Assembly (NCBI GenBank): GCA_937922785.1
Contig: CALAJQ010000008.1
Span: 1-64,000 of the forward strand
Source of the DNA: an uncultured Acidimicrobiales bacterium
GTDB taxonomy: Bacteria; Actinomycetota; Acidimicrobiia; Acidimicrobiales; SZUA-35
Direction of reading: 5' to 3'
DNA length: 64,000 bases
The notes beneath the pieces were generated by a model that was not told the DNA's origin, searched no databases, and worked only from the letters and a program-made list of their open reading frames with translations. Positions within the stretch are counted from its first letter, which is position 1. Each line of letters opens with the position of its first letter. Shown one piece after another: positions 59,288-64,000 of the stretch. A program made the position numbers and the translations under genes.

Positions 59288-60013
59288 CTAGCCAAGCAGG
59301 TTGACAAGTTTGCCGATCGCAGCGACGGCGGGTGCTTCGGCGTCAATATCGACGGGGGAGACACCCTGGCGGTCGGCTTTGATCACCACTGGATCGGTGG
59401 GGACCGTGACCACTTTGAACTCGGCGAACGCCGAACGGACTCGCTCGTTGTCTTCGTCGTCGGCAACTTTGTTTGCAACAACTGTGATGTTGCCTTGGGC
59501 TCGTTCGGTGGCAACCTGCACCGCCCGCTTACCAACATCGATAGAGCGCGGGGTCGGTTCGACGATCACCAGCGTGTGCTCGACGGCTTGTTCGGGCAGC
59601 CTCGTGAGGGTGCCGATTCCTGCTTCGAGGTCGGCAACGATAACTGTGTCAGTGTGAGGTACGGAGCTGAGCAACTGCTCAGCGGACAGGCCACATCAGG
59701 GTCAATCCGGTTCGGGATTGTCGATTCGGTTTACAACAGTTAGCCGCACCCCATCAGGGGCGTCGGTCCCGTAGGTCTGGAGGATGTCATCCCAAGTGTG
59801 AGCGTGGGATTGTTCGCCTTCGTCGATCTGATCCCGCAAAGACAACAGCCGTTCGGTTTCCAAATCGCCTACGCCAAGAGAGAGCCCGAGGTTGGGGTTG
59901 GTGTCGCAATCCAAGCCGACCACGTTGTGGCCTGCACGGGCGAAACTTCGAGCCAGCACGCCGCTTACCGACGTCTTTCCCGACCCTCCTTTACCTACAA
60001 CTGCAACTCTCAT
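59288..60013 (-). CDS. CooC-like P-loop ATPase, candidate selenoprotein with two in-frame TGA codons
   Basis: 241 residues when two TGA codons are read as Sec. Residues 1-103 carry the MinD/CooC deviant Walker A VVGKGGSGKTS and DCDTNPNLGLSLG. Then comes D103-TGA-Pro-TGA-Cys-Gly, in the same frame, followed by LSAEQLL, VIVADLEAGIGTL and VANKVADDE to the C-terminus. CooC proteins have a metal-binding CxC at this place (Cys112 and Cys114 in Carboxydothermus CooC1). The CooC-like gene at 63672 has GCTCGG there. A 7-bp hairpin follows 12 nt after the second TGA. Role inferred: nickel insertion or similar metalloenzyme maturation. The alternative is a pseudogene with two nonsense codons. Confidence 0.75.
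59666..59683 (-). promoter_or_regulatory. Candidate bacterial SECIS hairpin in the CooC-like gene
   Basis: Minus strand GCTGAGC-AGTT-GCTCAGC: a perfect 7-bp stem, loop AGUU with G in the second place. It starts 12 nt after the second TGA (59696-59698); loop distances of 19 nt and 25 nt from the two TGAs lie within the range for bacterial SECIS. Confidence 0.65.
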
Positions 60014-60022
60014 GCGGTCCTG

Positions 60023-60796
60023 TCAGTCCGAACTTCTGATGTCAAGATCGTAGGTCGATTCGACTTGGGTAACAAGTTCCGCCACCGCGTCCACAAAGGG
60101 ACCAGCGCCCCCATTTAGCGGTGCCACAGCTTGTTTGTCAGCTGCGGTGACCGCAGGGTCATCGGGAACAGCACCGATCACCGGCCGTTCTAGTGCGTCG
60201 GAAATTCTCCGCACATCTTCGGGGCCTGACACCCGGTTGGCTACCACGACAACATGATCGGGAGACCAATCTGCCTTGGTGATATTTCGCAACCGCTTGG
60301 CCACTTGAATTGACTTTGGCGTGGGTTCAGCCACTATCGCCAGCACGTCGGCATATTTGGCCCAGCCGAACATGGCTTGACGCGTGCCGCCGGGTAGATC
60401 GCCAACGACGTTCCAGGCGTTGGGGTCCATCTCTTTCACTACCTGGCTCCACGCGTGCTGGCCCCGCTGCAACGTTGACCAGTGGCCCCAGCTGTTGCCA
60501 AATTGCAGATACCGAACCCCGTCAGGGCCGGCCTCGGCGTATTGATCTATAAAGCCGCCGGCATCCAAGCCGGGGCGTAGAACCCAGCGCGGACCGCCCT
60601 CGGGTCCTTCAACGACGACGTCATCTGGAGCGGGCCGGTCGTCAACGGGAATACCCAGTGAGTAGGCCATGCCTGGCAACGGATCGGAGTCAACTGCCAG
60701 AACCGGCCTGTCTGTTCGAGCCAACAACCGGGCAAAGGTTCCAGAGATCGAAGACTTGCCAGAGCCACCCTTGCCAGCAAAGGCGATTCTGATCAT
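60023..60796 (-). CDS. CooC/MinD-like ATPase without the CxC motif
   Basis: 257 residues: deviant Walker A FAGKGGSGKSS, DSDPLPGMAYSLG, then VVGDLPGGTRQAMFG and VVVANRVSGPEDV. At the CxC position it has FGNSWGHWST, so it lacks the metal site of its paralogues. It starts 46 bp after the DsrE-like gene and stops 9 bp before the TGA-containing CooC-like gene. It may form a heterodimer with that protein (inference). Confidence 0.85.
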   Translation of the reverse strand: MIRIAFAGKGGSGKSSISGTFARLLARTDRPVLAVDSDPLPGMAYSLGIPVDDRPAPDDVVVEGPEGGPRWVLRPGLDAGGFIDQYAEAGPDGVRYLQFGNSWGHWSTLQRGQHAWSQVVKEMDPNAWNVVGDLPGGTRQAMFGWAKYADVLAIVAEPTPKSIQVAKRLRNITKADWSPDHVVVVANRVSGPEDVRRISDALERPVIGAVPDDPAVTAADKQAVAPLNGGAGPFVDAVAELVTQVESTYDLDIRSSD

Positions 60797-60842: not shown

Positions 60843-61226
60843 CTAACCGACATAGATGAACTCGGACTTGCCTTCGGCGGTTTCGGTGAGAATCTCACCC
60901 AAGGTTCGGAAGAACCCACCAATCTTCTTTGCGTCATCTTCTGAGACCCCACGGGCCTCGCTAGAAAACGGTCAAAGAGAGACGGCAAATGGAGCGTCGA
61001 TCGACTCGCCGATCTTGGTTCGAATCAGATCGCCGGCATCGTCTGCGGGCAGTGTGTCTAAGTCGGTTACGTCTACTGCCGACCCGGCCAGGCGAACCTC
61101 TGCGTCGAGGCCACTGTTGGCCGCAACGTTCGCAAAGTGGTAGGCGCGAAAGAACGCTCCGGTGTCTTCACGAGGGTCAGCGCTGCAGAAGAAAACTAGT
61201 TTTCGCACGGGTCCATAATCGGTCAT
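60843..61226 (-). CDS. DsrE-like protein, candidate selenoprotein with one in-frame TGA
   Basis: 127 residues when TGA 60972-60974 is read as Sec85. Before it: LVFFCSADPREDTGAFFRAY, LDAEVRLAGSAV and SIDAPFAVSL. After it, in the same frame: PFSSEARGVSEDD, GGFFRTLGEILTE, KSEFIYVG and TAG. DsrE-fold proteins carry the reactive Cys at such a place, and DsrE-like selenoproteins have been described. A hairpin with 7-bp stem starts 12 nt after the TGA. It heads the operon with two CooC-like genes, divergent from hypF. Likely role: sulfur or selenium relay in metal-centre assembly (inference). Confidence 0.75.
60943..60959 (-). promoter_or_regulatory. Candidate bacterial SECIS hairpin in the DsrE-like gene
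   Basis: Minus strand GAGGCCC-GTG-GGGTCTC: a 7-bp stem (one G-U pair), loop GUG with G first. It starts 12 nt after TGA 60972-60974, giving the same 19-nt distance to the loop as in the CooC-like gene. Confidence 0.65.
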
Positions 61227-61297: not shown

Positions 61298-63622
61298 GTG
61301 ACCAATATGACACGCCTGACGGTGCAGGTTTCGGGGACCGTCCAGGGTGTTGGGTTCCGGCCGTTTGTGTACGGGCTAGCTTCATCGCTGGGTCTTGGCG
61401 GCAGCGTCACGAACGCCGGAGCTCAGGTGATCTGTGTGGTCGAGGGTGATGCCGAGACGTGTAACCAGTTTGTTCGGCGTGTTCAATTCGACGCGCCTAG
61501 CTTGGCCGACGTGCATTCGGTTGAAGTCATAGTGTCGCCGCCCGAAGGTGACACCGAGTTTTCGATTGTGCCCAGCCGTCAAGCCGACCAGCAGCGATCG
61601 ATGGCAATCCCTCCAGATGTTGCCACCTGCGCCGAATGCCTCGCAGAGGCCGCCGACCCAAACAATCGGCGCTATGGGTATCCCTTTATCTGTTGCACAG
61701 TTTGTGGACCTCGTTACAGCGTTGTGTCTGATCTTCCTTATGACCGGGCCAACACCTCGATGGCCGGGTTTAAGTTGTGTGCCGAATGCCAGCAGGAATA
61801 TGAGGACCCTGCCGATCGACGCTTCCACGCCCAAGCCACCGCTTGTGCCGCGTGCGGACCGCAGCTAACCGGCCCAACCATTGACGGTGCTGTGGCTGCG
61901 CTTTTGGACGGAGCTGTCGTGGCAGTTAAAGGGTTGGGTGGATACCAACTCATGTGCCGAGCCGACAACTTCGAAGCGGTGCAAAAGCTTCGAGATCGCA
62001 AACACCGTGAGACCAAGCCGTTTGCCTTGTTGGTGGATTCGGTGGTTATGGCCGAGCGCGTAGTGGAGCTAGACCCAGTTGGGCGACAGGCCTTGGAAGC
62101 TCCCGAGGCCCCAATCGTTCTGGCTGCAGCCAAGCCCACAACTTCCGAACTGGCGGCATCCGGGCCCGAATCCGGGCTTGGACACCGCCAGAACCAGAGT
62201 GTTGGTCTTGAGGACCGCCAGAACCAGGGCGTTGGCCAGGTAGCGGACAACGTGGCACCGGGAACCAACCGTCTGGGCGTGATGCTTCCAGCTTCAAACC
62301 TTCACAGTTTGCTGGCAACCGGAGCGGGCGTGCCTCTTGTTTGCACCAGCGGGAACCGTTCGAACGAGCCGATAGTGATCGATGATCAGCTAGCGGCCAC
62401 AGCATTCGCCGACATCGCAGATCTCATCCTCACGCACAACCGTCCAATCGAACGGCGTGCCGACGACTCGGTTGGCCAAGTAGTTGCTGGGCAGTTTCAG
62501 CTGCTTCGCCGAGCACGGGGTTACGCGCCTCGGTCCGTCCCGCTGCAATCGTCAGGGCCGACGGTGCTGGGCGTCGGGGCAGAGCTAAAGAGCACAACGT
62601 GTCTGGCAGTAGACGACAGGGCATCGCTGTCGGTTCATCTCGGAGACCTTGAAAGCCCGTCGACGTTGGCCGCGTTTGAAGCCACCATCGCTGACCAGAT
62701 CTCCTTCGCTGCCGCCGATGTGGCCTTGGTGGTGCATGACCTTCACCCCGAGTATCTGTCATCGAAGTTCGCCACTAGTCAAGACATTGCCCGGGCCTTT
62801 GCGGTGCAGCACCACCACGCTCACCTGGTGTCGTGCCTGGTTGAGAACGGCCACGAAGGTCCGGCCATCGGGGTTGTGTTCGACGGGCTCGGTTGGGGTG
62901 ACGACGGCACGGCATGGGGTGGCGAATTTCTAATCGGCGATGCCAACGGTTATGAACGGGCCGGCTTCTTGAAACCAGTAGCGATGCCGGGTGGAGCAAA
63001 GGCCGTTCGCGAACCGTGGCGAATGGCTGTCTCGTATTGCATTGCCGCCTTTGGTGAGGTTCCGGAGCGATTGCGGGGGTTGTTCAGCGAACACGCAGTC
63101 GATGCCATGGTTCGGCTGTCTACTGATCCGTCTGCCCTTCAGACTTCATCAGTCGGCCGATTGTTCGACGCCGTCGCGGCCATCTGTGGTCTGGCCCAAA
63201 CCGTTACCTACGAAGGCGAAGCAGCTATAGCTCTGGAAGCCTTAGCGACGCCCTTAGCGACGGAAGAAACTCGAGCCCAGCCCGGGTACCCGTGGGAAGG
63301 AACTGACCCGGCGCCGCTGATTCGGGCTGTGCTGACCGATCTTGATTCGGGGGTTGACCCGGCCGCACTTGCGTACCGGTTCCATCAGTCCATTGCCGAC
63401 TTTGTTGGTCGGACTGCCGAAGAGCTCGCAGCCGAGAGCGGACTCGAAACGGTTGCGCTAAGCGGAGGGGTGTTCCAGAACCGGCTGCTGGTGGAGCTGG
63501 TGCTACCCAAACTCCAAGGCTCGGGGCTTAAGGTTCTTCGCCATCAACAGATCCCTCCGAACGATGGGGGCATCTCGCTGGGTCAGGTTGCGATCGGCCG
63601 GGCCGCACTTAAGCGCCTATGA
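61298..63622 (+). CDS. hypF: Carbamoyltransferase HypF, [NiFe]-hydrogenase maturation
   Basis: 774 residues. Acylphosphatase domain (VQGVGFRPFVYGLA, about 15-30), two zinc fingers (C111xxC114 and C133xxC136; CAEC and CAAC near 160-190), YrdC-like domain (VKGLGGYQLMCRAD, KPFALLVDS) and Kae1-like C-terminal domain (QHHHAHLVSCLVENGHEG, FDGLGWGDDGTAWGGEF). It makes the carbamoyl precursor of the CN ligands of [NiFe]-hydrogenases, so a hydrogenase should lie nearby outside the window. It contains an in-frame 30-bp tandem repeat. GTG 61298 or ATG 61307 is the start. Confidence 0.95.
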   Translation: MTNMTRLTVQVSGTVQGVGFRPFVYGLASSLGLGGSVTNAGAQVICVVEGDAETCNQFVRRVQFDAPSLADVHSVEVIVSPPEGDTEFSIVPSRQADQQRSMAIPPDVATCAECLAEAADPNNRRYGYPFICCTVCGPRYSVVSDLPYDRANTSMAGFKLCAECQQEYEDPADRRFHAQATACAACGPQLTGPTIDGAVAALLDGAVVAVKGLGGYQLMCRADNFEAVQKLRDRKHRETKPFALLVDSVVMAERVVELDPVGRQALEAPEAPIVLAAAKPTTSELAASGPESGLGHRQNQSVGLEDRQNQGVGQVADNVAPGTNRLGVMLPASNLHSLLATGAGVPLVCTSGNRSNEPIVIDDQLAATAFADIADLILTHNRPIERRADDSVGQVVAGQFQLLRRARGYAPRSVPLQSSGPTVLGVGAELKSTTCLAVDDRASLSVHLGDLESPSTLAAFEATIADQISFAAADVALVVHDLHPEYLSSKFATSQDIARAFAVQHHHAHLVSCLVENGHEGPAIGVVFDGLGWGDDGTAWGGEFLIGDANGYERAGFLKPVAMPGGAKAVREPWRMAVSYCIAAFGEVPERLRGLFSEHAVDAMVRLSTDPSALQTSSVGRLFDAVAAICGLAQTVTYEGEAAIALEALATPLATEETRAQPGYPWEGTDPAPLIRAVLTDLDSGVDPAALAYRFHQSIADFVGRTAEELAAESGLETVALSGGVFQNRLLVELVLPKLQGSGLKVLRHQQIPPNDGGISLGQVAIGRAALKRL
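62174..62233 (+). repeat. In-frame 30-bp tandem repeat within hypF
   Basis: ACCGCCAGAACCAG recurs 30 bp apart (62184 and 62214), encoding two ten-residue units with RQNQ-x-VG. It lies in a linker of the YrdC domain and is probably an insertion in a surface loop. Confidence 0.7.
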
Positions 63623-63671: not shown

Positions 63672-64000
63672 ATGAAGATCGGAATCGTTGGAAAAGGTGG
63701 GGTCGGTAAGACGACCACTTCGTCGTTACTAGCCCGCGCCTTGGTGGATCGCGGTCGACGCGTGTTAGCGGTAGACACTGACTCCAACCCAAACTTGGGC
63801 CTTTCGCTTGGCCTCAGTCCCGATGCCACCGAGTCCCTAGAACCAATTCCCCGATCAATGGTTGTTGGCAAACGAGGCGACATGACAGTTGCCGAATTGA
63901 TGAACGACTTCGCAGTTCTCACCCCAGAAGGTGTCACGCTGATGTCTGCCCTGCGTGTGAACGAGGCGGGCGCCGGCTGTACCTGCGGAGGCCACGCCAG
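63672..64000 (+). CDS. CooC-like nickel-insertion-type ATPase (partial, runs off the window)
   Basis: The first 109 residues are visible. Deviant Walker A IVGKGGVGKTTT, DTDSNPNLGLSLG and the CxC motif in GAGCTCGGHA. It is downstream of hypF, 49 bp apart, with GGGGAAG before ATG 63672. Close in sequence to the TGA-containing CooC-like protein, it shows that cysteines occupy the place of the TGAs. Role inferred: ATP-dependent metal delivery to a nickel enzyme such as CO dehydrogenase or hydrogenase. Confidence 0.9.
   Translation, partial: MKIGIVGKGGVGKTTTSSLLARALVDRGRRVLAVDTDSNPNLGLSLGLSPDATESLEPIPRSMVVGKRGDMTVAELMNDFAVLTPEGVTLMSALRVNEAGAGCTCGGHA

Follow-up and report, generated by a model that had tools for sequence, protein, structure and literature searches.

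A CooC-like ATPase gene with two very likely selenocysteine codons beside [NiFe]-hydrogenase maturation genes of an uncultured Acidimicrobiales bacterium

CooC1 of Carboxydothermus hydrogenoformans (PDB 3kje/3kji), linked to carbon monoxide dehydrogenase (CODH), is a MinD-type ATPase with a deviant Walker A motif and a CxC motif at the dimer interface, where Cys112 and Cys114 form a site that binds Zn in the crystal and for which Ni competes (PMC6006190). In Thermococcus kodakarensis, an Mrp/MinD-family ATPase acts as HypB and works with HypA, and no nickel site has been identified in it (PMC7055735); PDB entries 3vx3 and 5aun-5auq are those which we take to be this ATPase-type HypB. Selenocysteine (Sec, U) is not mentioned for it in the relevant parts of that paper. 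The HypB GTPase (TIGR00073) resembles the protein described here in the nucleotide-driven delivery of nickel to [NiFe]-hydrogenase that we propose, but belongs to a different family. Among selenoproteins, of which Table 1 of a 2026 inventory (PMC13188914), on its own tally, lists 119 families or subfamilies, the nearest idea is the CobW-related selenoprotein NF041053. It too is a selenoprotein by prediction and belongs to an NTPase family of metallochaperone type, but its motif is UxxC and its family CobW, while ours is CooC/MinD. A metallochaperone role is ascribed to the CobW family in general.

The window, i.e. the whole stretch of DNA analysed, comprises the first 64,000 nucleotides of a contig of this bacterium, in a genome of 4.9 Mb, 45 contigs and 95.7% completeness. 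Its features are listed in Table 1. The gene of interest, for which the earlier note gave no strand, is located on the minus strand. With TGA read as U, it translates into 241 residues with exactly two TGA codons, one Pro codon between them, and neither TAA nor TAG, which confirms the earlier claim that the two codons are the sole interruptions of the frame. The motif, initially given as Sec-x-Sec, is extended here to UxUC in order to include the adjacent Cys, and reads Sec-Pro-Sec-Cys (U-P-U-C) in this gene. The context is also corrected, to maturation of [NiFe]-hydrogenase. The paralogue starting at 63672 does read C-T-C-G-G, as had been stated.

Table 1. Positions of the CooC-like Sec gene, its neighbours and associated elements in the window
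Feature	Position	Strand	Remarks
CooC-like ATPase, very likely selenoprotein	59288..60013	minus	241 aa, motif U104-P-U106-C107
First Sec (very likely), TGA codon 104	59702..59704	minus	24 orthologues: TGA in 18, TGT/TGC in 6
Second Sec (very likely), TGA codon 106	59696..59698	minus	TGA in 24/24 TGA-bearing orthologues
SECIS-like hairpin of CooC-like gene	59666..59683	minus	7 bp, loop AGTT, 12 nt past second TGA
CooC-like paralogue	60023..60796	minus	no Cys at site, candidate heterodimer partner
DsrE-like protein	60843..61226	minus	one Sec (U85), likely
TGA codon 85 of DsrE-like gene	60972..60974	minus	TGA in 8/8 copies, this one included
SECIS-like hairpin of DsrE-like gene	60943..60959	minus	third pair CG/GC/UA
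HypF, hydrogenase maturation carbamoyltransferase	61298..63622	plus	
CooC-like ATPase	63672..64000	plus	C-T-C site, cut by window end, runs to contig position 64439

The protein falls into the Pfam class CbiA/MinD and has a MinD-type fold with the deviant Walker A motif GKGGxGKT. Among proteins of known structure, CooC1 (3kje) is nearest in sequence, with E 2.5e-12 when searched alone and 2.5e-44 as a profile; the profile search also matched, distantly, the PDB entry named Mrp homolog (E 3.6e-12). In the alignment, residues 104 and 106 coincide with Cys112 and Cys114 of CooC1, in accordance with the earlier assignment of the TGA codons to the CooC CxC site. The window protein thus has Sec-x-Sec-Cys where CooC1 has Cys-x-Cys. 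It also differs from CooC1, which is linked to CODH, in that its gene is paired with a Cys-less paralogue and resides in a hydrogenase cluster. In the AlphaFold2 model (pLDDT 89.2, pTM 0.88), Foldseek ranks MinD/FleN-type ATPases first and CooC1 ninth, the latter with a query TM-score of 0.77, the highest among the best 50 rows. No NCBIfam model matched this protein or six scanned relatives above the curated cut-off, and the HypB model TIGR00073 gave no match to the window protein. Sequence and predicted structure together make it likely that the gene product is a CooC-type MinD-family ATPase, while its Ni/Zn binding and ATPase activity are inferred.

Orthologues were collected at E <=1e-60. 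In a class sample of 395 genomes, 10 carry an orthologue (own genome included), nine of them with two TGA codons and one (G247) without any; a phylum sample of 396 genomes added 11 further genomes at the same E level. As at most 7 candidates were scored per genome, these counts are lower bounds. The closest named relatives are on five Acidimicrobiales MAG contigs, with 73-84% identity to the window gene. The 24 TGA-bearing orthologues comprise 18 with U-[PL]-U-C and six with C-[PL]-U-C. Over codons 1-236 none of them has a TAA or TAG codon, and TGA is restricted to columns 104 and 106. Three orthologues are all-Cys at the site, with C-P-C-C in G247 (locus L030; codons TGT CCT TGT TGC) and C-Y-C-C and C-Q-C-C in G740. 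Column 106 is likely to be the older Sec site, being TGA in every TGA-bearing orthologue and nearer to the hairpin. On a tree of 30 rows, 7 changes are needed among the UxU, CxU and CxC forms. This tree leaves nine forks open and includes one duplicated row, and its well-supported branches require no more than 2 changes for UxU. Repeated gains and losses are accordingly a suggestion from the tree, short of proof.

Comparison of the gene with its five close relatives gave dN/dS of 0.03-0.10 upstream of the TGA codons (four pairs computable, one saturated) and 0.07-0.16 downstream (five pairs). After the TGA codons, replacement changes per site amount to 0.12-0.22, roughly two- to threefold the 0.06-0.11 found before them, and still far under the synonymous rate, which is ~ 0.56-0.75 per site between the gene and these relatives. 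Synonymous sites are near saturation and the ratios are accordingly rough; within that limit, selection after the TGA codons remains purifying in all five relatives.

The hairpin (GCTGAGC-AGTT-GCTCAGC) has a 12-nt core, GAGCAGTTGCTC, that is invariant in the 24 TGA-bearing orthologues. Codons 112-115 (GAG CAG TTG CTC), which lie under stem and loop, are identical in all of them, and two of these four codons specify leucine, a residue with six codons. Given the extent of synonymous change between the gene and its nearest relatives, this identity supports Sec coding. Pairing is kept in 96.4% of cells over the 24 sequences (shuffle mean 88.6), and 15 cells are changed on both sides; neither value was reached in any of 500 shuffles. 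Two pairs co-vary, and slid versions of the hairpin pair at just 17-50%. The outermost pair is unpaired in 6/24. The number of pairs with double changes and the number of further pair types are not above shuffles, because five of the seven pairs never vary. Both all-Cys orthologues of G740 have lost the GAGCAGTTGCTC core or its CTC arm, reading GAG AAC CTC ATT and GAG CAG TTG TTG. The all-Cys orthologue of G247 retains the full hairpin, which fits a recent change from Sec to Cys, and which means that the hairpin by itself is no proof of Sec. At gathering score, Rfam detected nothing but a tRNA within the window, hence the hairpin belongs to no family listed there at that score.

The Sec machinery was searched in the source genome. 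The tRNA-Sec gene (selC) was found over its cut-off (66.7 bits), and SelA, SelB and SelD each exceed their own; the SelD gene has one in-frame TGA in the context U-G-C-K (read by eye). All ten relatives tested likewise have SelA over cut-off. Reading of TGA as another residue, e.g. Trp or Cys by a suppressor, was considered, and TGA readthrough is known in other organisms. Against it are the two columns, which hold only TGA or Cys codons, the hairpin, and the presence of selA, selB, selC and selD, and we regard this reading as very improbable. A pseudogene or sequencing artefact with two chance nonsense changes has nothing in its favour except the stops themselves. It was rejected and can practically be ruled out, since 24 orthologues share the TGA columns, selection is purifying, the hairpin is conserved and the Sec machinery is present. 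Comparative genomics, in the absence of protein data, thus indicates with high probability that both TGA codons encode Sec.

These results bear out most of what was predicted from the sequence alone. Chance nonsense at both positions had been judged very unlikely, and the 24/24 orthologues agree. The 7-bp hairpin 12 nt past the second TGA was confirmed, with co-variation in addition. All four sel genes, the alternation of TGA with TGT and TGC in the TGA columns of homologues, and close relatives free of other stops and with selection persisting after the TGA codons had been named as checks, and each was found. In the idea of a nickel-handling ATPase with a diselenide or diselenolate site, only the Sec coding is supported; selenium in the protein, metal binding and diselenide chemistry are inferred.

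The Cys-less CooC-like paralogue is found within 1 kb of the UxUC or CxUC gene in 24/24 TGA-bearing loci, always without Cys at the site. Past the window, the contig continues with the CooC-like gene (C-T-C), HypE, HypD (named by eye, without family search), a SIS-domain protein, HypC, another CooC-like gene (C-L-C) and a His-rich protein. Further along are the small and large subunits of [NiFe]-hydrogenase, two maturation proteases and a NifU-like protein. The large subunit (L021:11072-12961) has an uninterrupted frame with DPCMPC at its end and is therefore not that of a [NiFeSe] enzyme. The small protein with the His-rich C-terminus (L021:9226-9717, minus strand) recurs in many hydrogenase clusters and is a possible nickel carrier; it has no Pfam or NCBIfam match.

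Hydrogenase-cluster genes are near the pair in 20/24 TGA-bearing loci (10/14 in the first group and 10/10 in the phylum-sample group). One of the latter, G640, has across 14 kb only maturation protease, NifU-like, TPR and CooC-like genes, with no hyp or hydrogenase subunit gene. No hydrogenase genes were found within ~ 10 kb of the pair in G225, G328 and G138, while for L056 the short contig does not allow a judgement. Transport genes adjoin the pair in some genomes: an oligopeptide/nickel-type ABC ATPase and two permeases in G387 (Pfam), a family-5 binding protein in G322 and G225 (Pfam), and a similar-looking permease in G334 (by eye). In G499 (L118:1283-9918), matches to hydrogenase subunits are split over several pieces, possibly as a result of sequencing error or decay.

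In the class sample, a type-B hydrogenase, whose large subunit shares the match type found in the source genome, occurs in 10/10 orthologue-bearing genomes and in 9/385 others (Fisher p=4e-15). This value is not corrected for relatedness, and types A and B were assigned from match range and E-value, without a tree. HypB over cut-off was detected in a single genome in each of two sets of 11 (G225 in the first, the all-Cys G740 in the second), and in 1/19 examined genomes with the TGA form; the source genome has none. Matches to the HypB model below cut-off, which may represent other NTPases, are present in the other ten first-set genomes and in three of the second set. HypA exceeds its cut-off in 1/11 genomes tested (G225; first set only), so that the partner on which the ATPase-type HypB of T. 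kodakarensis relies is missing in 10/11.

The specificity of this pattern is limited. Within type-B genomes, HypB is found in 1/10 with the orthologue vs 5/9 without it, a weak contrast (p=0.057). Of the genomes with the other hydrogenase type, 12/13 are without HypB at E 1e-25 and the orthologue is missing from all 13; absence of HypB is thus not specific to the orthologue. Ten genomes (G007, G018, G038, G062, G090, G133, G156, G210, G241 and G306) have a full-length large subunit of the other type and no HypB at this threshold. Strict replacement of HypB by the UxUC orthologue is contradicted by four genomes (G058, G196, G233 and G288) with a type-B hydrogenase and neither HypB nor the orthologue, and is not claimed.

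CooC-like paralogues elsewhere carry U-T-C, U-L-C, U-T-G or U-G-G at the same column, and each of them can fold a hairpin after the TGA (single-sequence folds, without covariation). The superfamily may therefore have acquired Sec at this site in several subfamilies. One-Sec paralogues are located at L089:7116-7835, L090:8770-9489, L091:8985-9704, L063:7859-8578, L092:8008-8727, L032:1525-2244, L083:3325-4044 and L087:8705-9424, and in L120 near 3216 (minus strand). A U-M-C copy is present in G577 and a U-L-C paralogue in G058, and the UTG copy of L089 is placed among apparent leucine biosynthesis genes (by eye).

Alternatively, the selenoprotein could be the metallochaperone of a different metal or cluster (Zn, Fe-S or the nickel of a non-hydrogenase enzyme), with only an indirect link to hydrogenase. 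This would agree with the Zn in the CooC1 crystal (PMC6006190), with the three genomes in which the pair is not near hydrogenase genes, and with the one-Sec paralogues of L063, L087 and L089-L092, which have no hydrogenase gene in the searched stretch. Against it are the type-B hydrogenase of every orthologue genome in the class sample and the hydrogenase-cluster genes at all ten phylum-sample TGA loci (accessory genes only in G640). We consider this explanation unlikely.

The DsrE-like gene, two genes upstream of the CooC-like Sec gene, is likely a second Sec gene, according to comparative sequence evidence. A local search found 8 copies (own copy included), all with TGA at the same place and conserved sequence after it. 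Its 7-bp hairpin is paired in 56/56 cells, with six of the seven pairs never varying; its covariation score was reached by 3/500 shuffles, and double-change pairs and pair types are not above shuffles. The Pfam DsrE match is below cut-off (20.4 vs 22.7 bits). DsrE-like selenoproteins are a listed family (PF02635; PMC13188914) and resemble this protein, but have UxxC, while the motif here is U-P-[FY]-S.

This neighbour bears on another possible, though rather unlikely, explanation, in which the CooC-like selenoprotein is a redox switch or oxidoreductase with Sec-x-Sec-Cys forming a diselenide or selenenyl-sulfide, and ATP hydrolysis is tied to the redox state, perhaps with the DsrE-like protein as a partner. 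According to a 2026 review (PMC13188914), a redox function is likely for most selenoproteins that have not been characterised, and the DsrE-type Sec protein lies close by. From general chemistry, Se-Se or Se-S bonds are possible in principle between the neighbouring residues of UxU and of U-C. Opposed to this are the alignment of the site with the Zn/Ni site of CooC1, the MinD-type ATPase fold, the location of the genes mostly in hydrogenase clusters of genomes without HypA/HypB, and the presence of a DsrE-like gene near in only 8/24 loci (some neighbourhoods are short).

The reading we prefer, with moderate confidence, is that the protein is a Sec-containing CooC-type ATPase which handles nickel for [NiFe]-hydrogenase and stands in for HypA/HypB; the involvement of nickel, the heterodimer and what selenium contributes are all inferred. 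According to this model, the SelA/B/C/D machinery would read both UGA codons as Sec, guided by the hairpin, which alone may serve both, at 12 and 18 nt. The UxUC protein and its Cys-less paralogue would form an ATP-gated heterodimer, in which Ni(II) would be held by both selenolates of one chain together with its neighbouring thiolate, a binding mode for which there are no metal data. After HypCDEF build the Fe(CN)2CO part, ATP hydrolysis would power the transfer of nickel to the still nickel-free (apo) large subunit of the hydrogenase encoded nearby. Selenium may provide a softer ligand and a site that recovers from oxidation. If nickel is delivered by such a heterodimer, a set of CooC-like ATPases would take the place of HypA/HypB. 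The ATPase-type HypB of T. kodakarensis offers a precedent for the proposed role, though it is HypA-dependent there. The two CooC-like genes with ordinary CxC in the same cluster could be the nickel inserters instead. The hydrogenase link is also weakened by the fact that CooC is known for CODH, and CODH genes were outside the search.

The bolder version, that an asymmetric CooC-type heterodimer with selenium ligands replaces HypA/HypB in actinobacterial hydrogen oxidisers, goes beyond this and is at present somewhat less likely than not. It would represent a second route of nickel insertion, and a metallochaperone with selenocysteine as metal ligand, which we did not find described. CooC, MinD and ParA entries and a UxU motif are absent from the relevant parts of Table 1 in PMC13188914, and no Sec-bearing CooC was found in the openly licensed PubMed Central text searched, judging from result listings. 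Term searches for CooC in PMC9312934, PMC12013277 and PMC12134894 were negative, and the open-access results examined on CooC-hydrogenase and HypBAT provided background only. It can be inferred that gene callers which stop at TGA would truncate UxUC CooC-like genes.

If true, the finding adds a selenoprotein family, a MinD-type ATPase with Sec at its metal-delivery site and a Sec-x-Sec motif not listed in PMC13188914. Since UxUC, CxUC and CxCC forms exist naturally, selenium vs sulfur as a transient nickel ligand becomes a clearly testable question. It would also help to explain hydrogenase maturation in genomes without detected HypA and HypB.
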